Assembly: GCF_002234675.1 (NCBI RefSeq)
Contig: NC_019871.2
Span: 18,670,433 to 18,734,432, forward strand
Length of the DNA stretch: 64,000 nt
Direction of reading: 5' to 3'
Source of the DNA: Oryzias latipes
Taxonomy: Eukaryota; Chordata; Actinopteri; Beloniformes; Adrianichthyidae
In this document: piece by piece, positions 4,001 through 63,590 of the stretch
How the letters are laid out: every line of letters starts with the position of its first letter
Numbering within the stretch: the first letter of the stretch is position 1
Translations under genes and position numbers: made by a program
Notes under the pieces: generated by a model
What the model was told of the DNA's origin: nothing
The model's input: the letters and a program-made list of their open reading frames with translations, nothing else
Database searches by the model: none

Positions 4001-6298
4001 GTAACAGTACTCACAGTTGGAAAAAGCTCAGTGCAAAATGTCAAAACTCAGCAAATCTTGCTCCAGGCTTTTTCTTCCAGTTTTTATTATGGTGGAATAT
4101 AAGTATTTGGTCAATAACAAAAGTTCAACTCAATACTTTGTTATATCCCATTTGTTTGCAATGACAGCAGTCAAAAGTCTTCCCAAGGTTTTCACAAGCC
4201 GTTGCTGGTATTTTGGCCCATTCCTCCATGCAGATCTCCTCTAGAGCAGTGATGTTTTGGGGCTGTCGCTGGGCAACACAGACTTTCAACTCCCTCCAAA
4301 GATTCTCTATGGGGTTGAGATCTAGAGACTGGCTGGTTCACTCCTAGACCTTGAAATGCTTCTTACCAAGCCACTCCTTCGTTACCCGGGCTTTGTCTTT
4401 GGGATCGTTGTCATGCTGAAAGACCCAGCCACGTTTCATCTTCAAGGCCCTTGCTGATGGAAGGAGGTTTTTACTCAAAATCTGATAATACATGGCCCCA
4501 TTCATTCTTAACACAGATCAGTCGTCCTGATCTTTTGCTGAAAAACAGCACCAAAGCATGATGTTTTCACCCCCGTGCTTTACAGTAGGTATGGTGTTCT
4601 TTGGATGTAACTCAGCATTCTTTCTCCTCCAAAGTTCTATTTTGGTTTCATCTGATCATAGGACTTTCTCCCAAACCTCTTCTGGATCATCCAACTGCTC
4701 TTTAGCAAACTTTAGACGGGCCTGCACATATACTGGATTTAGCAGGGGGACACGTCTGGCGCTGCAGGACTTGAGCCCCTGGCAGCGTAGTGTTACTGAT
4801 GGTAGCCTTTGTTATTTTGGTCCCAGCTCTCTGCTGGTCACTCACTAGGTTCCCCAGTGTGGTTCTGGGATATTTGCTCACCGTTCTTGTGATCATCCTG
4901 ACCCCTTGGGGTGAGATCTTGCAGGGAGCCCCAGATGGAGAGAGATTATCAGTGGTCTTGTATGTCTTCCATTTCCTAATAATTGCTCCCACAGTAGATT
5001 TCTTCAAACCAAGCTGCTTACCTATTGCAGATTCAGTCTTCCCAGCCTGATGCAGATCAATAATTTGGTTTCTGGTGTCCTTAGACAGCTCTTTGGTCTT
5101 GGCCATAGTGGAGTTTGAGTGTGACTGTCTGAGGTTGTGGACAGGTGTCTTATAAATTCATAACAAGTTCAAACAGGTGGCATTAATACAGGTAACGAGT
5201 GGAGGACAGAGGATCCTCTTTCAGAAGAAGTTACAGGTCTGTGAGAGCCAGAAATAATGCTTGTTTGTGGGTGACCAAACACTGATTTTTCATCATAATT
5301 TACAAATAGATTCCTTAAAAAAAAAAATAATAATAATAATAAATAATCAGACAATATAATTTTTTGATTTTTTCTTCTTCTCATTTTGTCTCTCATAGTT
5401 GAGGTTTACCTTTGATGATAATAACAGGCTTCTCTCACATTTTTAAATGGGAAACCTCACAATTTGGTGGCTGACTAAATACCTTTTTGCCCCACTGTAC
5501 GCACGTTTACATTGAGTTTTCATTGGAGATGTTAGCTTGAGCCCGGTTTGAATGTAGCATAATATTTAATGGGTTTCAGTCAGTTCTGTTGGGATCTGAA
5601 CCCTCTTCAGCGGTTTTCTACGTTCTTCAAAACCTTTTGAATGTCACATTCCTACCTTTGGTCATGTTTTTGACCCATTTGTTGATCTCGTCAGCAGCAG
5701 CGTGGGGGTTGCTGAAGTCAAGAATCCTGCTTTCACACTGAAAGTTGGCTTTGTTTGTGCTCACAAAAGTCTTCTCCATGGGGAACCCCTTCTGGCTGAA
5801 GATACCGTTGGCAATCAGAACCGTGTCTTGGTTGGACTTGGAAGTAAGAGTTTTGTGCAACCTCCTCAACATCTTGTAGGGTCCTGAGCAGAAAAAAAGG
5901 ATTAGATTGATCTTTACCTCCTTAAATAATCTTTCATTTAAAAACAGTAACAACTGTGAGAAATAACTTAGGGTCAGTGTTTGTTCAACTGCATCTCCTG
6001 ATCTTCTTCTTCCACAGAAGATCCATCTCTTACCATTTTTCTTGTACCGCAGCCCTTTGATGATCTGCCTCCGTGTTTCCCCGTGGGCTCCAGAAAGCAG
6101 CATGCCTAAGACGGAAGCCACTCCATGGGGCGAAAGCACCACGTTCTCCAAGGGTCTGGAGCGGACTACTTCCTGAAACACCTGGATGCCAAGATCAGAA
6201 CCTCGTTCTCCATATGATGGAGCTTGGCACAGCACTTTTTTATATACAAACAGGTTCATCAGTGCACAAAGGCAAACTAGTGATGCGCCTTTCTTCAT
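1040..6298 (-). CDS. serpine2: Serpin E2 (protease nexin-1 / glia-derived nexin)
   Basis: Secreted serine-protease inhibitor; the vertebrate family inhibits thrombin, urokinase and trypsin-like proteases at the cell surface, helped by heparin. Coding exons on the minus strand: 6034-6298, 5656-5883, 3510-3707, 1755-1953, 1586-1683, 1312-1398, 1148-1231, 1040-1077. Joined they give 398 codons plus stop, the same length as human SERPINE2, with consistent phases and GT-AG sites throughout. The start ([17 protein letters not shown]) opens a signal peptide; a splice acceptor 14 bases upstream implies a noncoding first exon. Serpin signatures visible: [32 protein letters not shown], the hinge [11 protein letters not shown], and the reactive loop [10 protein letters not shown] with Arg-Ser at P1-P1' as in mammalian SERPINE2, then [10 protein letters not shown] and a final MGQINQP. 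The heparin-site segment reads [14 protein letters not shown], with fewer lysines than the human one. A Tc1 relic lies in the intron between exons 2 and 3. Orthology rests on remembered family sequence; other clade E serpins fit less well. Confidence 0.93.
2825..3310 (+). repeat. Dispersed repeat copy (relative at 58780-59290)
   Basis: Contains TCTGATTGGCTGCTGGGTGTCCACTAA and, further on, CCACTGGTTAGT followed by AGCTGCAGCAGA. The same blocks recur near 58786-58816 and 59180-59225 inside an eif4g1 intron, so this is a moderately diverged interspersed repeat in a serpine2 intron. Class not determined. Confidence 0.55.
4096..5497 (-). mobile_element. Decayed Tc1/mariner transposon in a serpine2 intron
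   Basis: The minus-strand ORF at 4702-5106 begins [20 protein letters not shown] and continues into a paired-type helix-turn-helix ([20 protein letters not shown]), typical of fish Tc1 transposases. The catalytic half, read in broken frames at 4250-4700, keeps only traces of the DDE region. The right terminus reads, on the minus strand, ACAGTGGGGCAAAAAGGTAT next to a TA. The left end (AAGTATTTGGTCAATAAC near 4100) lacks a clear matching terminal repeat and is probably truncated. Non-functional. Confidence 0.85.
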
Positions 6299-31409: not shown

Positions 31410-40659
<9,250 letters not shown>

Positions 40660-41124: not shown

Positions 41125-42507
<1,383 letters not shown>

Positions 42508-43580: not shown

Positions 43581-43859
43581 AGAATAAATCATATTGGCTG
43601 ATTTTAGTAACCCCCTTTCCTTTTATTAACATATTTATTTACATATTTGTATCTCTTTTTTGTGACATATTTGTGGTTGGTCACTATAAAGTCTCACTCA
43701 CCCCTTTTCTTTTGTTATCTGGGCTTGGAACCGGCAGTGGCAGAGTTTGAGTTTTTTCCCCCTTTTTTTATGTTTTTGTTTGAAACAGAAAATCATAATG
43801 AGAACATAAGTCAGATAGTCAGAACATTACGGTAACAGTTCTTCATGCCCAGAGTCAGA

Positions 43860-43860
<1 letters not shown>

Positions 43861-43900
<40 letters not shown>
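43861..43900. repeat. (TA)20 microsatellite, 5' flank of R4-like LINE
   Basis: About 40 bases of pure TA directly before the first base of the R4-like LINE fragment. Confidence 0.95.
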
Positions 43901-43901
<1 letters not shown>

Positions 43902-43904
<3 letters not shown>

Positions 43905-44820
43905 TACATCAAGCTCAAGGCCCCAACTGACAGTGTGCTCAGTGAATGTCTCAAGCAATGGAGAGCAGAGGATACAGTGCTGGAGGACAGATCCTCATGG
44001 GAGGACAAACCCCTGCATGGGATGTACCACTGGACCATAACTGAAGTGGCTGATATCAAGAAGTCCTACCAATGGCTAGAAAGGGCTGGCCTACAGGACA
44101 GCACTGAAGCGCTCATCCTGGCAGCTCAGGAACAAGCCCTGAGCACCAGAGCGATAGAGGCTCAGATCTACCACACCAGACAAGACCCAAGATGTAGGCT
44201 GTGCAAAGAGGCGCCTGAAACAATCCAGCACATAACTGCAGGGTGTAAGATGCTGGCAGGTAAAGCATACATGGAGCGCCACAATCAAGTGGCTAGAATA
44301 ATACACAGGAACATTTGTGCAGAATATGGACAGAAAACCCCAAGGTCAAAATGGGAAACACCTCCGAAGGTAGTAGAGAATGAGAGAGCAAAGATCCTGT
44401 GGGACTTCCAGATCCAGACTGATAGGATGGTAATGGCAAACCAACCAGACATTGTAGTGGTGGATAAAGAACAGAGGAAAGCTGTTGTGGTGAATGTGGC
44501 AGTGCCAAGCGATGGGAACATCAGGAAGAAGGAACATGACAAACTGGAGAAATACCAGGGACTCAGAGAAGAACTGGAGAAAGCATGGAAAGTGAAGGTA
44601 ACAGTGGTGCCTGTGGTAATTGGAGCACTCGGGGCAGTAACCCCCAAGCTGGAGGAGTGGCTACAACAGATCCCTGGAAAGACCTCAGACCTCTCAGTCC
44701 AGAAAAGCGCAGTGCTAGGAACAGCTAAGATACTGCGCAGGACCCTCAAGCTCCCAGGCCTCTGGTAGAGGACCCGAGCTTGGAGGAGAAACCACCCGCG
44801 GAGGGTGAGAGGGGCGTTTT
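43902..44820 (+). mobile_element. R4/Rex6-like LINE, 5'-truncated, C-terminal ORF intact
   Basis: An open frame runs from the TA tract to a stop at 44766-44768, about 285 element codons with no break. It carries a CCHC knuckle CRLCKEAPETIQHITAGC (spacing CX2CX8HX4C) and then ANQPDIVVVDKEQRKAVVVN, like the PD...D core of the restriction-enzyme-like endonuclease of R2/R4-clade LINEs such as fish Rex6. It ends QKSAVLGTAKILRRTLKLPG. The reverse transcriptase domain is missing. A short 3' UTR (CCGAGCTTGGAGGAGAAACC) leads straight into a second (TA)n tract. Clade assignment is from remembered motifs. Confidence 0.8.
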
Positions 44821-51890: not shown

Positions 51891-51911
51891 ATGCAGACCC
51901 CCGTGAAATGA
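51891..51911 (+). promoter_or_regulatory. Six-codon uORF overlapping the eif4g1 start codon
   Basis: ATG at 51891 opens a six-codon frame (MQTPVK) ending with TGA at 51909-51911. The main ATG is at 51908-51910, so the two overlap as ATGA. A ribosome that translates the uORF terminates exactly on the main start, an arrangement suited to termination-reinitiation or leaky scanning control. It is only real if the leader exon includes this segment; candidate acceptors CTGTCTTAG (51862) and GTGCACAG (51872) both keep it. Confidence 0.6.
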
Positions 51912-54900
51912 ATAAAGCACCACAACCTCTTACGGGACCCCCCTCCGCCCCCCATCCAGCCCCCTCGCCCGGTCTTTCACAGGTAAGATGTGCTGTGTTT
52001 AACATTGAAGAGTGACGGTGTTCCATGCAGATGAAAAGTCTGAAAGGGAAGATGATCATTGGTGGGTTGGTGAACACAGGGACTTCCCTGCTTCTGCAAA
52101 TGCTTTCAGGCAGGTTTATGGACTTAGTCAGAGTTAAAATGACAGTAACCACCTCAGTGGCCTAGTGGGAGAGTGTCCTCCCTGAGACTGGAAGGTTGTG
52201 GGTTTGAGTCATACCAGAGACTCTAAAAATGGGTCCCAATGCCTCCCTGCTTGTCACTCAGCTTTAACGGGTTAGATTTGGGGGTTAAACCACTAAAGGA
52301 AGGGTTCTCAAGTGCAGTGTTGTCTGCAGCTCACTGCTCCCCCAGAGAATAGGTCAAATGCAAAGAACAACTTTCACACACCCAGGTGCATTACAACTAA
52401 CATGACTTTAACTTTAAATACCAGGAATTACCTTTTACTTCCTGTATGGACATCCATCCATCCATCCACCCACTACAGACACTATTTTTCACCAGATTTG
52501 AATAGAAATCGCAGCTTCGCTGAATTCTGAAGTTCAAGAAAAGCACATGATCCATCTATGCTCCCATTAGACAGCTTCCGTTCCGTACTGAGCTTATGCC
52601 CAATAAATCCTTGTAGGATGTTGTTTAACATCCTTAATGATTTAATTCACTAAATTAAAGACATTTTTTGACAGTTTAGTCTTTTTCAAGACAATTAAGT
52701 TAAATAATTAACAGTTAAAGCACTTCAAGAACAATTTTCTCCATTAACAATAATGCACAGGATGCTGGGATATTATTGTTTATGACTTTTTTTTTTAATC
52801 TTCTGCAGTTAACAGCTTTCTTTCATTCTACTCTTTCTGTCTCTTATAGCCACCGTTTCCCCCTGGCCAACCCCCTTCTGTTCTGTTTGCACCCTCACCA
52901 CAGCCACAAATGAACCCCACACCGCAGGCCCGACAGGTGAGCCTCCCGCTCCTGTAGGTGCTGGGGTTTGATGTTTATCCAGACATTTTTTATTGGCCTT
53001 ATTTTAAAAGAGTTAGCATCAAAAGAAAATTTCTCCGTCATGCTGCTAAAGTCTTCTGGGGTGAGACTGACCGAACTTCTGATCACTCAGGTTTTCTTCT
53101 TCTGCACTTTAACTCCTATTGTTGGTGTAACCTCCTGTCAGAGTTGGAGCACTGAAGATGTCTGCAGGTCATCTGACATAAGCAGTGAGCTGCTTAAGTA
53201 GTTGAACACATTGGGTTTGCTTAAAGTGAACCAGAGTTCGTTTCCCCCGATAATCCGGAACAATTTTTCAATCTGATGGGATTATATCCCATATCCAACT
53301 TAAATGAATTACTTCTATTGGTAACAAGTAATTGAGTTAAATTTACTCAATCTAATTTCTTACGTCTATCCAACTCAATATTTTTTTACAACTCAAATTT
53401 ACATATTTATCTAACTAAATGTCATATTAGTCCAATTCAATTAAATGTTTTTTCTTCTTAATTTATTGTACTTCTAGAACCCTCGTATGTCTTAGTTTGA
53501 ACCTGCAGATATTCTCATTTTTATAACAGTAAAATGAATGAAACAAAATGGAATTGCAACATAAAACCATTTACCATATCTCTGAATTTATCATTACACC
53601 ACTATACAGTAGGGCTTCTAAATAAACTCATCATCCTCTCCCTCCCTCTCACTCATGGTGCAGAAAGAATTAAATATAACGGGACAAATAACTACGCAAA
53701 ACACAGTAAAACATCTAAACAACTAAACACATTTGGTCAAAAAGCCACACTTAAACCTAAATCCGTCCAGACAGGCAAAGGGAATGGTATCCCACAATTC
53801 CTTGCGGTGCCAATCTAACCGCAGCACCACAGTTACACCTACTTAATTGAATTAATTTGAATGAAAGAAAAATAACTGTCTGATAACTACATGTTATTTT
53901 TAAGTTGGCCGAACTCAAAAAAATGATTTATCTTAAATGAAGAAAATAATTAAGTTAGATCAATGTTAGATCAAAAGTTTATCTTTCCAACATCCATACA
54001 AGGTCTTATCATGGAAAAAGTATTATCTGAGCTTCTTCATCCACTAAATCAGTGTTTTTCAACCAGTGGGAGATGGTCAAGTGTGCCGTGGGAAATAAAT
54101 TTCCCTCATTAACTGATTTAACAACATTTTCCATCTCCAGGATATCAGTTCTTTTTTCATCCAAACACGCCCTGACAAAACACTGAGAAATTAGGAATAT
54201 GAAAGATCGGAAAATACTTTTTTCTTTGTGTTTATTTGATTCTATTAAAGACATTTTGAGAAGAATGACGGTACCGTGATTTAGCTGCAGCTATAACTGT
54301 TTTCTGAAAAGTCTCGCCCCTTTAACTGTCTCCGCCAATCATTCTTGGAATCTTAATCACGTCATCAGTCTGACCAATCAGAAGTGGTTAAAGTCTTCAC
54401 TTCCTTGTTCTGAATTCTGCTGATAAAGTCGCTCAGTTCCAACAAAAATACAAGCTAAAACTCATCTTCTGTGGTGTAGTTTTCCACAGAATCCGGTGTC
54501 AGACCGTAGAAAAAGTGAACAAAACAATGAAGCCCAGAGACGCTAGTCTTTCTGCGTTCGGCGTATTTTTGCACTAAATCTCCTATGATGCATTGGGTTA
54601 AAGTAACAGCGAATGAGTCTCTCCTCTTAACGTCTTGAAACCACAACGAACACACATCAAACAGTTTTAAATCTTCTAACTTAACTTTTATTACATCTTT
54701 TAGAAAAAACAGCGGCAGCTTCCAGCTTTTTCTCCCACAATTATCACAAAAATGTATGTGAGATTGTGGAGGGGCTGTAGATCAATACAGACTGAGTTTC
54801 TCCTTTTATTTTTTTATTTTTTGGATGCTGGTGTGCCGCGGGATTTTTGTCAAGGTGTGCCGTGGCTCAAAAAAGGTTGAAAAACACTGCACTAAATCAT

Positions 54901-57900
54901 CTTCAAATAGACACGCCATGCTGCTTCACCTCTCTGAAAACAAACTAACCTTCAACTAAACCTGCTCCAGACCAGGTTATGTTCAGAGCATGAGTTGCTA
55001 TGGCAACTTGACATACCCTGAAACATACCTCCATTTTTGGAACCGAAAGCTGAGGTTATCCACTTCCTTAGCCTCAAACTTACAGTGGTAACTAGCATAA
55101 CCTGCCTTTTGGAATACCACCCAGGAAAGGCCGTGTGACAGTAGTCTGAATAAACACCAAACGCAAGGTACAGGACTCGATCCGTACCAATTTAAGCATA
55201 TTGGCTCCGTAACAAACGGTTTTCCCAGTCTGAATATATCCTTAAAGGTCGTGGAGCTTTCAGTTCTATAAAACAAAAGCCTTCATGAAAAGTATTAATG
55301 TAGAATGTGTTGTCTTTTGACAGTTAGCCTTTACGGTTAACTTTTTAGCAGAAGGGTTCAAAAGTGCCAAATCGTAGAAGTTTGTGAGTGGAAGCATGAA
55401 CCCTGAGCTTTTCTTTTTTCTGCTTTTCCTCCAGTTTGCTCCAGGGCCTCGCGCTTTACACCAACAGGTACTAACAGCTCCCTAACAGCAGTCAATGAGG
55501 CTGTTTGTCTGTCCCTAAGTTCATGTTCGGAAGCGCTGGAGCAGAGTGAAACATGGAAGCTAGTGGTCTGAAGATGGTGTTTACAAACAAACACCTTTAG
55601 CCCAAAGGGAATCTTGTCTAACCAAATTTGTTCTTTGTTTTTTTGGGGAAAAGTTCAAAATTTTTAACCAACAAAACATTGGTTGTGTCCGAATTCACTT
55701 GCTCCTCCCCGGTTAGTGCACTTTATTGTGGATTCGCCATTTTGTTTTATGGTTTCCGAATCTACAATTCCAAAATCACGTGCCCTGGAAATTTCCCAGA
55801 ATTCTGTGCAAAAAATAGTATGCATTGATGTTCACTAAAGTTTGCATTGAGTTTTTGTCATTTGAAAAAAAGTATTTGAATTACATTTAAAATACTTATT
55901 TAAAACAACCACGTTTTTATCATCAGAACCCAGTGGATTCTTAAAGAGTTTTCATAAATTTTTCATAGTTTTTAATTCAGCAAATGGTTGACATCATAGT
56001 TGGAGTTTAAAAAAGAAAGTAGTTTGCGTTTGTCTGAATTTGATAGTCCTCCACTATGTAGTCCTTCAGGGGTTATGGAGTGCATCTGGACACAGCCGTT
56101 GTCTTTTCTCACTACCTGAACTAGATTTTAACTTCTTGAAAGTAAGTTAAAAAAAAGCAAACCATGAAATGTTGAAACATTAAAGTGGTTAGCTGGCCCC
56201 AAAATAGCTTCTGGAAATGTAAGCATACTTGTTTTTACAGTGCAGCTGCACAGACTGAACCAGGGTTGTCTGTTGTTCCCTGCATGCTGCTCCTTTATTT
56301 ACTGCTTGGCACAGACTTGCTGTTTTCTGGGCTCTTTCTCTGACTGACTGTGCTACTGTCTCACCTCAGTCCTTCTCTTTGAACCCTCTTCTTGTTTTCA
56401 TATGATTTTTGTCTGTGTGCTGCTGAAGGGAAGCTTCAGGTCTCTGCAGGTAACTCTGCTTTCTCTATCTTCCCCTTCTCCTGTCCAATCCCCCCTCAAC
56501 CATGCATATGCATGCAGTGCTGTGCTTTGTTGGCTCGATGTGGGTTTGTTGGCAGTGATGGTTAGCTCTCAGTCTGGCAGCAGAATGCCAATGAGGAGAA
56601 AGAAAGAAGCAGCTGATAGGCAGGCACATCTTGTTTTAGTGACCATCGAGCCACAAATTCCTCGACATACAACGAGCAAAGGTTCCCTCTCATCTGTAAA
56701 ACATCCCAGCATGAACAGGAATTAGTATGAGCCTCTTTTGGATAGCCTTTACTGGTTTATCCAACTTTATACCATGGTCTGGGTGAAAACAGTGGTCCCT
56801 CGTCACAGTGGAGGTTACATTCCATAAATAGCCTGTGCATATAGATGTTTTAAGGTTTTAAAACTCCCCATTACACACTTTATACACTTTTCTCAGACAG
56901 ACGTGACCATTTTCCCACTTTTCTCTCTTGTTGAAACTATCAAAATTTAAATCTTAATTGAAAACTAGGTCCAGTATTTTCAATGAATGAAATATTTGTA
57001 TAAAATAAAAACAAAGATCTGGGGCCTCATTTATAAACGTTGCGTACGCACAAAAGAAGGCGTACGCCACTCTCTACGCAGTAGTTGATATTTATAAAAA
57101 GCAAACTTGATGGGAAAATGTGCGGTCCTTCACGCAAGCTCTGACCCAGGCGTACGCACAAAAACGGGTGAAATGAGAAACGGCGACACCGTCGGCAGAT
57201 GGAAGAAACGCGTGAAAGTGACAATGACAATACTGCCTCTCAGAAATAACATGACGACCTCACAAAGCAAGTCTTACAATTAACAGCCTACACGAACACC
57301 CGTTTGATCGATCAGCAGTGAAACAAACAAAAAAAAATCAAACGAAAATTACAACAGAAATTCAAATGAACACTTATTTGCAGAAAGAAAAGTGAAATAT
57401 GTTCAGCAATATTGGCATGTTGTGCAATTCATCCTCATAAATAATAGTTAACAGAACGAAATAATGTACAAAACTGATGTTCTCGTCAGTGTGTCCGTCT
57501 GGCGGAGCAGACATAGGTGCGGGCGTGCGGACGGACGGACAGACGTACTAATTGTCCACTGGGGAAAGTTCTTTTCATATTAAAACATTTCTTCATAAGC
57601 TATGGAATTATGGTATTCATACATATGCCTTTAGTTTTTTTTATCTTTGATAAAACAATGTATGGCGTATTTTTCAACCATTCACAAAGCAACAAGAAAT
57701 TACAATTGCGCTGAAAAATTTACCATTTCCACGTTGATTATTACCGACATCTGTAGCTTGTCAGATGCAATTAAATGGAGGGAAATAAAATGCCCCATCA
57801 CAATGCGTAATGACGCACAATGGCTGATCTTGCGCTCTTAGAAGATGTGGCAAATGGAAGAATTCGGAGAGAACGCATCTTTAGACAAGAAGACTTGCTG

Positions 57901-59997
57901 GCAAACGAGGACGAGTGGCTTATGAGCCGGTTCCGACTTCCTCGAGCCGTCCTCTTGGACCTCTGCCGGCTTTTGGGCCCGCCGTTACAGAGGAGCACTC
58001 GGAGGAACCACGCGTGTCACCCGGTGCATCTGGCGCTCCGGTGCCCCCCCACCCCACCCCCACCCCGTGGCAGACACACTCTGGCGATGCAGCTCCAGAC
58101 GTTTTTTTGCCTCGACTTTGATGTCCGACCATTTCTTTTTCATTTCGGCCACGGTCCGAGGTTGTGAGGCTACAGCATTTACGGCGTCTGCCTTTTTGGC
58201 ATTAGTAATGCCCACACTGTGCCCTCCAAACAACACTTTTCTCCTCTTTTCCACCTCGCCAACGATAACTTGTACTTCACATTGAGTGAAGTTACGTTTT
58301 TTTGATTTCCTCCCTGTGTTTGCTATGATCTCGCAAGACATGAATATTAATTTGTGGGCGTTTCACGGACTATTTATGGGCAACTATAGGTGTGTCATGA
58401 AGCCGCAAAAGCTGCGCAGCATTTAGAATTGGTTGTGATTTATTAAGGGAAAGATGCGTAGGATGTGCGTGCGCACGGTTTTATAAATCCGAATATTTTT
58501 GTGCGTAAGCACGTCCTATGTTTCATCCGTACGCCACTTCTGACGCAAATCCTACGCAAAGTTTTATAAATGAGGCCCCTGATCACGATTGAAGATTTAT
58601 GTATATGTGACAAACTGAGCGCATTCTGTACAGGGGACACTGTATGGAGGAGATTGTTTGTGAAGATCAACAGCCAATAGGGATGCAGAACACAGTACTC
58701 TGTGAAAAAAAGAAAAGCATGCAAAATAGCATGCAAAAAAACTGACAAAAACAGAAAAAAAAACCAGCAAAGGACCACTGTACTCAATTCTGATTGGCTG
58801 CAAGGTGTCCATTAAGTAAGATACATTATACCTTACTTATTGGACACCCTGCAGCCAACCATTAAAGTAATGAAATTAAATAATTGGATGTAGCATATTT
58901 ATTAAGATACTACTTTATTAATCTTGTTATTTTAACATTTAAATAGTTTTTCACAATAAGCAGACTATTTGATATGCGTTGTGATGCATTGTCATGGTAA
59001 CTGTTACCGAGCCAGAAACAACCACGCTCTACTGCAGCCGGTATAAGCACCGGAAGATAGTGGTATATAAGCTTAACGTCATGCTATGTGACTAAAACCA
59101 TCATTTAAAGGGAAAGTTCACCTCTTACCCCTTGGTTTTGTCCACCTAACATGACCTTTAGCACATATACAACTTCCCCCCACTGGTTAGTCCTCATCCA
59201 CCAGCTGCAGCAGAGCGTGCAGCAGATTACCATCACGTGTCTCACCACAATAGTTTGTTTCTTATGGAGACGATTTAAACATTTAAAAAAACTAAATTAA
59301 AGTACTAATGATAGATGTAATATTTTGTTCTTTTGTAAGGGACCATGGGATAACCAGAACTAGGCCCTTTGAGGTGTCAGAAATTAATGGACTTTGTGGA
59401 ACCAACCATCCATGATGTATATCAGTTTCTGACACTCCTCTGGCATTATCCTTTACGTGTCCATGTTCTGCCATCACCCCTGGATTTTTTTTTTTGCTTT
59501 TCAGTCTTTGGTTTCTCCACACTTCTCCTCATCTCCATTTTAAATTCTATTGTTTTTTTCTTCTTCCTTTGTCTCCTAATACCTCCTCAGCCATTCTACA
59601 CCAGCAGGACAGGGCTGGCTCCCAGCACTGGCTCTCGTGGAATCCCCCCCAGCAGTGCCCCCCGTGCCGTGACTCCCACCCATGTGTACCAAGCAGGCCC
59701 TGGCTCCCAAATGATGATGATTCCTCAGCAACAGCTGTCCTTCCCCAGCTCACCTCAGGGTCCGGCCTACTTCATACCTGGGCAGGTGAGCAAGGCATCC
59801 AAAATGAGGTCAGCCTTTTCTGACCTGCAAAACAGGATTTTAATGACTCTGCTTCTGTCTTCCTTCCTTCCTTTTTGTGTTCTATTTTTCTTAGTACCGG
59901 TCAGCCGCTTATATGACGACACCCCAGCAGTACCCAGTCCCAGCAGGAACTCCAGGCTTCTACCCTGGAACCAGCCCCGCTGAATATGGTACTTTTG
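51908..59997 (+). CDS. eif4g1: Eukaryotic translation initiation factor 4 gamma 1, N-terminal part
   Basis: Scaffold of the eIF4F cap-binding complex. Coding exons read here: 51908-51982, 52850-52936, 55435-55467, the optional microexon 56429-56449, 59591-59785 and 59895-59997; the last ends in phase 1 and the gene continues past the window. Diagnostic peptides are the start MNKAPQPLTGPPSAP, then PPFPPGQPPSVLFAPSPQPQ, QMNPTPQARQ, PFYTSRTGLAPSTGSRG, HVYQAGPGSQMMMIPQQQ, AYFIPGQ and QQYPVPAGTPGFYPGTSPAE, each matching the mammalian eIF4G1 N-terminus as I remember it. All earlier junctions are phase 0, so the short exons can be skipped without shifting the frame. The PABP-, eIF4E- and eIF4A-binding regions lie downstream and are not seen. 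The gene follows psmd2 on the same strand, as in mammals. Whether this is a 1a or 1b teleost duplicate cannot be told. Confidence 0.95.
52145..52425 (+). mobile_element. tRNA-derived SINE of a second family
   Basis: A-box-like CCTCAGTGGCCTAGTGGGAG and B-box-like GGTTGTGGGTTTGAGTCAT, then GGGTCCCAATGCCTCCCTGC and GTTAAACCACTAAAGG, ending GACTTTAACTTTAA. This body is widespread in fish genomes. It lies in the first coding intron of eif4g1. Confidence 0.7.
54050..54889. mobile_element. hAT-like non-autonomous element, about 840 bp
   Basis: Terminal inverted repeats CAGTGTTTTTCAACC and GGTTGAAAAACACTG, with GTGTGCCGTGG-type motifs inside both ends. It is flanked by a perfect 8-bp target duplication CACTAAAT (54042-54049 and 54890-54897). 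No transposase; minus-strand ORFs at 54009-54254 and 54455-54655 look non-coding. Confidence 0.88.
54898..55125. repeat. Interspersed repeat end ending in GGAATACCACCC
   Basis: Read on the minus strand it begins GGGTGGTATTCCAAAAGGCA and GGTTATGCTAGTTACCACTG, a common fish repeat terminus. The hAT element at 54050 probably inserted in this older repeat, because the TSD bases CACTAAAT(C) continue into it. The left half before 54042 is hard to delimit. Confidence 0.45.
55681..56097. mobile_element. MITE with TGTGTCC terminal repeats
   Basis: Ends GGTTGTGTCCGAATTCAC and, reversed from the other side, GGCTGTGTCCAGATGCAC: 14 of 18 bases match. About 417 bp, no ORF, in an eif4g1 intron. I could not read a clear target duplication. 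Confidence 0.55.
56429..56449 (+). other. eif4g1: 21-nt eif4g1 microexon encoding GSFRSLQ
   Basis: Seven in-frame codons (GGAAGCTTCAGGTCTCTGCA plus G) between an acceptor GCTGCTGAAG and a donor GTAACT. Both flanking exons are phase 0, so inclusion or skipping keeps the frame. The bases just before the acceptor, TGTGTGCTGCTGAAG, contain repeated TGC, the placement known for SRRM4-dependent neural microexons. From memory, mammalian EIF4G1 isoforms carry GGFRSLQ at this spot, differing by one residue. Confidence 0.75.
57022..58578. mobile_element. PIF/Harbinger deletion derivative with remnants of both genes
   Basis: Terminal inverted repeats GGGCCTCATTTATAAA at both ends, flanked by the 3-bp duplication CTG (57019-57021 and 58579-58581). 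A plus-strand ORF at 57820-58010 encodes a Harbinger transposase N-terminus (RERIFRQEDLLANEDEWLMS, RFRLPRAVLLDLCRLLG). A minus-strand ORF from 58341 encodes a Myb/SANT-like second protein (KRNFTQCEVQVIVGEVEKRR, then VAEMKKKWSDIKVEAKKRLE). The two converge and are joined near 58040, where the middle has been lost. It lies in an eif4g1 intron. Confidence 0.85.
58780..59290. repeat. Dispersed repeat copy with a strong hairpin
   Basis: Shares TCTGATTGGCTGC, GTGTCCA, CACTGGTTAGT and AGCTGCAGCAGA blocks with 2825-3310. At 58796-58856 arms GGCTGCAAGGTGTCC... and ...GGACACCCTGCAGCC (25 bases each, two mismatches) flank an 11-base loop. Confidence 0.55.
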
Positions 59998-60595
59998 GTA
60001 AGAGGCTCTGCCCAGGGCCTCACTTTTGTCACTTATTCACCAAAACACATCCATTAAAAAGAAAAACACGTTTTTATTACTCACATTAGTAGACTATAAC
60101 AGCAAACCTGCATGTAAATAACATGTCCAATCTTTTTTTTTTTAGGGGGGGGGGGTCTTTTATAGTTATGGATATTAATGACTGTCAGGGTTATGACTTT
60201 TCCTTAACAAAGAGAAGAACCACACAGGAAATTAGATTAGAAGCCTTTCTGTCACGGCGCTAACTGCGACAGAGGAGTTCTGTCTTCCCAGTGTAACCAG
60301 TGGCTGGGGTTGATAACATGAAAGTGGGTCATTCAAGCAGGCAGAACAGGAACATCATATCTTGTACAGTCAGCACCTAGCACGTCAGTGTTTTGTTCTT
60401 TTACTGAAAGACAGAACTGAGACGCAATCATTTTCTGGTGAAAATAGCGTGTAAGGAAATGATACCTACGGTACGTGAACCCCAACAATGACTTTCAAAA
60501 CTGGGTTTCAGTTTTTATCACCGCTCTCTATAGTTTTCAGTTTTTTTCACAAAATAAAGCTTTTTTTCATTTTGGTGAGTTTTGAGGAAGACCTA

Positions 60596-61461
60596 CCGTA
60601 AATTCTGGACTATAAAGCGCACCCGATTATAAGCCGCACCCACCCAGTTTCACGTGTTCAACTACTTTTATACATACACAAGCCGCATCGGAATACAAGC
60701 TGCATGTACTAGGCAGCATTGACATCCTGACAAATCACATTCTGACTCCCAGAGTAAGTGTGATGCATTGGCACACTGTGGGTGGAGCCAGCATTGCCTC
60801 AGGCTCATGTATTTGAGTGCACCTACATCTGCCAAACAGCATGGACCTCTATTCTGTTCACAAGTTCCTCAGTTATGTTTTTTTATTTTATTTTTTTTGT
60901 TTTTTTTACTTATTGACAATCTAGGTATCATACATAAAATTACAAACAGTAACCATATAATCAACATTACATCCCTCAGTTATGATGAGGAAATTTACAT
61001 CCGCGATTCCCCATTTCCCATGAGTCTTAGGGGCTAAAAGTGTCACGCAGCTAACCGGCTTTTCCAAACCCGTTGGTGATGGTGGATTTTTTGACGCTGC
61101 TTTTAACGATTGCTTTTAACTTGAAAGCTTCATCATATTGTAGCGGCAATCACGTGCACGTTGGGTCTAATGGCACCAAAGGATTCTGGGATGCGGCCGG
61201 GCATGCGTGTTTCGTTTTGTTGAACCATGACTGAAATGTCTAAGACCTGAAGTCAACACCATGCTGTTTGGCTGCTGATAGGTGTGTTGAAAAACAATTG
61301 ACTTGTGCTTGATGTTAGATAGAGAATTCAAACCATTCACTGAGTCCGAAAGTACGTACATGGCGGCCGCCAATTAATCCATAAATTAGCCGCGTCACTG
61401 AATAAGCCGCAGGGCTGTAAGCGCAGGAAAAAGGTAGCGGCTTATAGTCCGGAAATTACGG
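60596..61461. mobile_element. TA-flanked MITE with CCGTAA...TTACGG ends
   Basis: The left end CCGTAAATTCTGGACTATAA and the right end, reversed, CCGTAATTTCCGGACTATAA match at 18 of 20 bases. TA lies directly outside both ends (60594-60595 and 61462-61463). About 866 bp in an eif4g1 intron. No transposase recognised; the plus-strand ORF 60768-61037 is not family-like. Confidence 0.8.
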
Positions 61462-61463
61462 TA

Positions 61464-63590
61464 GTTTTCAAACAGCCTGGCCATAGAGAGGAGTGGTCCC
61501 ATCTAAGAGGAGTGCAAGTGTGTCTTGGGGCCTATACAGCCACCTCAAGGGATGGAAAAAAAAGGGACCGTACCATTATCGTGCGTGTGGTAAGTGTATC
61601 ATGAAGTATTTGTAAGGCTAGAGGAAGTTGCACGCACTTATGACAAACGGACGATGAGTTCTTATGGTGTTGTACAGTGTCCTTATGCTACTCTTGTTGT
61701 TAGTAAGGTGCTAGTACTGGTTCCTTACTGACTGTTCACAAATGCTCGCTGCACGGAAGGCACTCCCACATGGGCTCCTTTTGCAGTCTGCAGGATTTGG
61801 GGGGGGGGGGGGGGGTGAAAAAGTGAAAATACGCCAGCGTCTCACCTACATCACCCTTACTCCCTTATGTGTTGTATAAGTGTTCACTGCGACCAATGCA
61901 GAAAAAAATGGGCATGAACATTTTCTCCCTACGTGGTCACAGAGCAGTCTACCACCTTGTTATACTGTGCGTGCCCCATACAGGTCTGACCATTTTTCAC
62001 TCGCAGACGACCCGTATGCCCCTTTTAAGGACAGTTAGGACTAAGGTCCAGTTTAAACTTCATAGTGATTTGTAATCGCTTGGGTTGCGTTGGTTGCAAG
62101 GCCATAGGAAGGGGATTGCTCAAATTGCTGCAATTGTGATACAAACTCATTACATTAATTAAGATTTGAATTTAATGCCCATAGTGCAATTGTGAACATT
62201 TAACCAGAACTTATTTCATGCAATTAGAAGACACGACTTTGGAGCAAACTTGATCCAGAAAATTGCTGTTTCCACATCCCAGGATTTCTAAACCACGTTC
62301 TAAATACATGAGGGGTTGGTTATTATGTCATTCTGACTCAGTTTAAAAAAAGAAACACAAGAATCTCACTACACATTTACTTTATAATGCAACTTTTGGT
62401 ATTTTGGATAATTTCAAATGACCTTTTGTTTAAAAGTAAAGTTATCTGGTATGTTGAGGCATTTGAAAAAAACACTGTTGTACTATCTCAAAGATCTCTA
62501 CATACGCTTTCACTATAAATAAAATACCAAACCACTGAAATGCTGGAGATAATCCATCAGGCTGGAAAAGGATAAACACCACTCAGAAGTTTGTTGCAGG
62601 TATTGAGAACAGTTGCCAGCTAACTTAGTATGCAATTCAATTCAATTTTCAATTCAATTTTATTTGTATAGCCCAAATTCACAATAACAGTCGTCTCAAT
62701 GGGCTTCGTATGGGTAAGTTAGTACGTTAAGTTAGTACGAACTAAACTGCACGATTCCAGGAGGATCGCGAAATGATTGATGCAATGGCCAATTGATATG
62801 AAGTATAAACTGGCCCTAAAGCTTTACTAATCCCGTTTCAGTCTACATGAGGACAGTTAAGGTCAACTCCAAGGTTATAGATTGAAGTGAAACCTGCAGT
62901 ACTTTTGCATTCATGCCACATTTTTACTTTGGATCAAATGACAGGATTTGAAGGTAATGCAGTTTATCCTGTAAAACCAAATTCTAGAAGTAAATGAAGA
63001 CTGTAAGTCATGCAGGGATTTTAAATAACACAAACATCGGAATCTGCTAGTCTGTCAGTTCAATGTATTTAACAACATGAAATAACACAAACCAACATCT
63101 GTTAATATGTCGGACTGTTTCTTTACCTTGATGCAGTCGTCTTGCAAACTTGTGTTACATCTCCCTCTAGAGGTGACAGTAGGTCAGACGGTAAACTCCC
63201 TGACCTTTACTGGCAGGCATGTGAACTATTTGTTGACCCATGGTTCATCAGCAATGCTCACAGACAGACCGGTCAACACAAAAACCCATTTTACTCTTTC
63301 ATGTCCTGCTCTGTCCCTTTAAGGCAGGAAGAACAATGACACTTAAAGGCAGTTAATCTTTGAATGATGTTTTTTTTTACTAGATTACAGTCACGTTTGT
63401 CAGTAACAAAAAAATATCTATAATTTATATTCATATATCTATAATTGACCTTCAAAGTTTACTTTGAAGGTGGAGAAAGTCTGAGGTGGATGAGGTCATC
63501 ACAAAAGCTCCTGTGCTGTTTTCTTTCTCTGCTGCCTTGTGAGTTTGTGCCGTAGCTGAGCAGTCTTACATTTCAGGGAGGGAGGGAGTA
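61464..63590. other. eif4g1 intron, mostly unrecognised sequence
   Basis: Contains a poly(G) run at 61799-61815 and, at about 62635-62715, a repeat fragment TCAATTTTATTTGTATAGCC followed by CGTCTCAATGGGCTTCGTAT, a common fish interspersed tail. I find no further eif4g1 exon before 64000. Confidence 0.45.

Follow-up and report, generated by a model that had tools for sequence, protein, structure and literature searches.

A 21-nt exon in Oryzias latipes eif4g1 is probably orthologous to the neural microexon of vertebrate eIF4G1

The window, meaning the whole 64-kb stretch of Oryzias latipes DNA analyzed here, carries on its plus strand the 3′ part of psmd2, encoding 26S proteasome subunit 2 (38120..40659; later exons to the stop codon read by eye), which is the closest recognised gene upstream of eif4g1 and lies on the same strand. 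Region 38120-38575 matched 26S proteasome subunit 2 chains in PDB with a best E value of 2.3e-31, whereas Pfam (E up to 1) missed this piece and returned only a sub-threshold THAP match. The first coding exon of eif4g1, MNKAPQPLTGPPSAPHPAPSPGLSQ (51908..51982, plus strand, 75 nt), reads MNKAPQPLTGPP..LSQ and is followed on the same strand by an 87-nt exon (52850..52936, PPFPPGQ..QMNPTPQARQ), a 195-nt exon beginning PFYTSRTGLAPS (59591..59785, PFYTSRT..IPGQ), and a 103-nt exon beginning YRSAAYMTTPQQYP (59895..59997, YRSAAY..EYGTF). PSMD2 and EIF4G1 are adjacent in human, and human eIF4G1 starts similarly to the MNKAPQ.. sequence read here; with human as the comparison, psmd2 upstream and the N-terminal exons place the exon described below in eif4g1. 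Neither PDB (E up to 10) nor Pfam (E up to 1) gave any match to the encoded N-terminal stretch, and scans of viral and prokaryote contigs (not vertebrate collections), made with two downstream exons in case stray vertebrate sequence was present, gave pattern matches numbering 9 and 132, of which none proved to be a relative. The encoded N-terminus (171 residues) consists to 67% of P/Q/S/G/Y/N/T and has nine charged residues, which accords with the reported overlap with prion-like domains (PMC10551640).

Between the 87-nt and 195-nt exons lies a microexon of 21 nt (56429..56449, plus strand, phase 0-0) that encodes GSFRSLQ. It reads GGAAGCTTCAGGTCTCTGCAG, is preceded by gatttttgtctgtgtgctgctgaag and followed by gtaactctgc, and so has AG..GT borders; the adjoining exon edges are at 55467 upstream and 59591 downstream, and the eif4g1 reading frame stays open with and without it. 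The coordinates, length, and peptide given for this seven-codon exon in the original prediction were all reproduced from the sequence, and its description as phase-neutral on both sides is correct. However, the 75-, 87-, 33-, and 195-nt eif4g1 exons are also phase 0-0, and because its neighbors share this phase we dropped symmetric phase as evidence. To call the splice sites clean was generous: AG and GT are present, but the donor, GTAACT, lacks a G at +5 and scores 4.5 against 7.2 for both the 87-nt and 195-nt exons (with assumed scoring weights), and the acceptor, AAG, has 11/16 pyrimidines, the lowest among the four eif4g1 acceptors scored, with A at −3. Regulated micro-exons are reported to have weak polypyrimidine tracts (PMC10551640, PMC4317164). 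Folding of the RNA around the microexon was ordinary (z 0.21, with 118/200 shuffles folding equally well or better), which led us to abandon the idea of a structural switch. A search against Rfam, with gathering thresholds applied, gave zero matches across the 64-kb window.

Upstream in the same gene is a further in-frame exon candidate of 33 nt, encoding FAPGPRALHQQ (55435..55467, plus strand). Its acceptor, with 15/16 pyrimidines, is the strongest of the four scored in eif4g1, and its donor is the weakest (−0.44, compared with 4.5 for the microexon; same assumed weights). No mammalian counterpart of this exon is known to us, and it is a possible cassette exon specific to this lineage.

Several mobile elements accompany these genes. 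A DNA transposon at 57016-58584, within the intron that follows the microexon, has 22-nt terminal inverted repeats at 95% identity and a minus-strand Myb/SANT-like ORF (Pfam PF13873, E 4.9e-14). Its plus-strand ORF, which we take to resemble the start of a Harbinger transposase, gave a single sub-threshold and unrelated Pfam match, and the whole looks like a shortened PIF/Harbinger element. Elsewhere there is a presumably hAT-like element at 54050-54889, with ends cagtgtttttcaacc and ggttgaaaaacactg, and a presumably MITE-like one at about 60594-61464, with inverted ends around ccgtaaattctggactataaagcgca and gcggcttatagtccggaaattacggta. Minus-strand ORFs at 41342-42330 and 4702-5157 are, we assume, Tc1/mariner-like transposase fragments, and a 310-aa open frame between long TA repeats (43836-44768) presumably resembles the end of a LINE-type polyprotein.

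The mammalian Eif4g1/EIF4G1 neural microexon, which is reportedly the subject of Gonatopoulos-Pournatzis et al. (Mol Cell, 2020), is taken by us to be 21 nt long and to encode GGFRSLQ. Against that length and peptide, the exon found here is likewise 21 nt, preserves the frame, and encodes a conserved peptide, with S in place of G. The claim that GSFRSLQ lies one residue from the mammalian peptide thus stands as a 6/7 match to an assumed mammalian sequence; the string GGFRSLQ was found in 0 papers in a full-text literature search. Position in the gene can be compared through primers. Primers Eif4g1F and Eif4g1R are listed in the primer table of a microexon-splicing paper (PMC8378409), and from the subject of that paper we infer that they flank the mouse microexon. 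Translated in one frame each, they give QMNTPS and FYPSRA, which resemble QMNPTPQ (with a gap) and FYTSRT in the two flanking exons, so that the microexon lies between short, weak matches to both primer peptides. For each peptide, 4/6 matches are also present elsewhere in the window; because of this and their shortness, it is order, frame, and gene taken together that carry the argument from the primers. The two microexons are therefore alike in gene, in position between QMNTPS- and FYPSRA-like exons, in being small and in frame, in peptide (6/7), and in having UGC by the acceptor, where SRRM4 targets would be expected to have it; the window differs in its extra upstream 33-nt exon candidate and in the transposon in the downstream intron.

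The paralogous EIF4G3 also has a 21-nt microexon, exon 6a in human (PMC7697094), of equal size and likewise linked to SRRM4, and the zebrafish eif4g microexon in the main text of PMC12626420 is that of eif4g3b, with Eif4g1 named there for mouse only. In contrast, the psmd2 neighbor and the MNKAPQ.. N-terminus, which resembles the human start, place the window in eif4g1. For fish, 402 microexon pairs are reported as common to mouse and zebrafish (PMC7821500), and a layout of UGC plus UC is described in 42 of 95 conserved microexons in a study that also tests eif4g3b (PMC12626420). Among the titles and abstract openings of the literature matches listed, none concerned an eif4g1 microexon in fish; a term search for eif4g in PMC13281805 was negative, and the term occurred only in a reference in PMC12626424, PMC11283458, and PMC12148930. 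The Atlantic cod EIF4G1 splice variant (PMC6072735) was considered and set aside, as it is described with a complete domain and could not be linked to the microexon.

How readily could such an exon arise by chance? The window contains 469 AG-N21-GT stretches, 236 on the plus strand and 233 on the minus strand, and the 236 plus-strand stretches alone lend some weight to the view that this is a chance stretch in a long intron, never spliced in. Yet the microexon matches the assumed mammalian GGFRSLQ at 6/7 in the expected intron and frame, and every other one of the 469 stretches matches at 3/7 or less; when splice sites are ignored, the best other heptapeptides in six frames reach 5/7, at four places. 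First-order Markov copies contained a comparable exon in 1/300 cases for 52938-59590 and in 2/150 for the gene span, with thresholds derived from the microexon itself. Further UGC-bearing candidates do exist. At the donor strength of the microexon and with two UGC, candidates of 9-27 nt in the window number one on the plus strand, the microexon, and two on the minus strand, whose donors equal or better its own. When the thresholds were relaxed far enough to let the 33-nt exon through, 52960-59590 yielded four candidates of 6-60 nt. UGC was paired in two of these, the microexon and a 9-nt in-frame AG..GT candidate at 53052-53060 (SSG). The latter has a weaker donor and an acceptor with A at −3, lies in the same stretch as the microexon, in the intron that follows the 87-nt exon of eif4g1, and is probably due to chance. 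Given the peptide, intron, and frame, we regard a chance origin of the GSFRSLQ exon as very improbable.

The original prediction placed a TGC motif within 15 bases 5′ of the microexon, and those 15 bases are exactly as reported: the acceptor TGTGTGCTGCTGAAG (56414..56428, plus strand) has UGC, the SRRM4-type motif, starting at −11 and −8, and ends in AAG. Srrm4-dependent exons are described as having UGC close to the end of the polypyrimidine tract, with its GC needed. Further upstream is a pyrimidine-rich stretch (56369..56394, plus strand) with UCUCU at −55, possibly comprising PTBP1 or SRSF11-type sites, and UCUCU and UGC are reported as intronic enhancer motifs (PMC13080001). Downstream, the donor GTAACT is followed by another pyrimidine-rich stretch (56450..56498, plus strand) with TTCTCT at +12, which may likewise have a regulatory role, and by TGCATG, an RBFOX-type site, at +60 (56509..56514, plus strand). 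According to Li et al. 2015 (PMC4317164), alternative micro-exons show an enrichment of UGCAUG on their downstream side, but because TGCATG occurs 22 times on the plus strand of the 64 kb, with another at 56281, the site is modest evidence. UGC is likewise frequent. Of the 584 pyrimidine-rich AGs in the window, 178 have at least one UGC within 20 nt and 29, that of the microexon among them, have at least two. In a control of nine acceptors read by eye, the microexon among them and the four psmd2 sites unaligned, five of the other eight had at least one UGC within 25 nt, including all four of psmd2, and one of the eight had two; three psmd2 acceptors were entered one base late, which shifts motif positions by one and leaves the counts by sequence the same. 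UGC was therefore dropped as stand-alone evidence, and the pair at the microexon is compatible with SRRM4 control rather than proof of it.

These frequencies bear on the alternative that a genuine, orthologous exon is constitutive here, or controlled chiefly by PTBP1 or RBFOX instead of SRRM4. Its favor lies in the commonness of UGC beside acceptors in the window, those of psmd2 (exons read by eye) included, and in the pyrimidine tracts and TGCATG that flank the microexon. It is harder to reconcile with an acceptor that is the lowest in pyrimidines of the four scored in eif4g1 and has A at −3, with a UGC pair right at that acceptor, and with the published naming of EIF4G1 as an SRRM4 target (PMC10214192), and we consider it unlikely. 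The same paper bears out the premise that SRRM4-controlled neural eIF4G microexons are known biology. As for the proposal that the microexon and its control have been kept from fish to mammals, gene, position, length, and peptide fit it; kept control would be an additional step, because UGC near acceptors is common in the window. On balance, the GSFRSLQ exon is very likely orthologous to the neural microexon of vertebrate eIF4G1 and would be mostly skipped, but included in neurons through SRRM4/SRRM3.

Whereas the exon-like stretch, its frame, its gene, and its motifs are directly observed, we infer in which tissues this species uses the exon, what regulates it, and what it does. With a weak acceptor, and with pyrimidine tracts on either side that favor PTBP1, the microexon would most likely be skipped in most tissues; Ptbp1 knockdown raised inclusion in 129 of 141 micro-exons with altered inclusion (Li et al. 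2015, PMC4317164). In neurons, SRRM4/SRRM3 would act at the acceptor-adjacent UGC motifs to bring about inclusion, perhaps with help from RBFOX bound to the UGCAUG further downstream. The known SRRM4 target in EIF4G1 is reported to show higher inclusion in neuroendocrine prostate cancer and in normal brain (PMC10214192). Here, inclusion would lengthen the Pro/Gln-rich and presumably disordered N-terminus of eIF4G1 by seven residues, including one F and one R. Reports on mouse state that inclusion promotes phase separation and restrains synaptic protein levels, and that deletion of the microexon alters social behavior and increases some synaptic proteins (PMC10551640, PMC8670310). By analogy, this chain of effects would be the likeliest in the present species too.

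A more doubtful extension is that the microexon and the 33-nt candidate form a tandem pair in this lineage, with the latter also alternatively spliced, so that four N-terminal eIF4G1 variants differing in F and R would tune phase separation and translation; if true, control here would exceed the simple on/off choice described for mammals. The microexon itself is probably real and already known in kind, and it confirms an expected conservation with little surprise. Its value is that a well-studied, autism-linked splicing switch and its likely control elements have been located in a fish genome, where the locus lends itself to tests by deletion or with minigenes.
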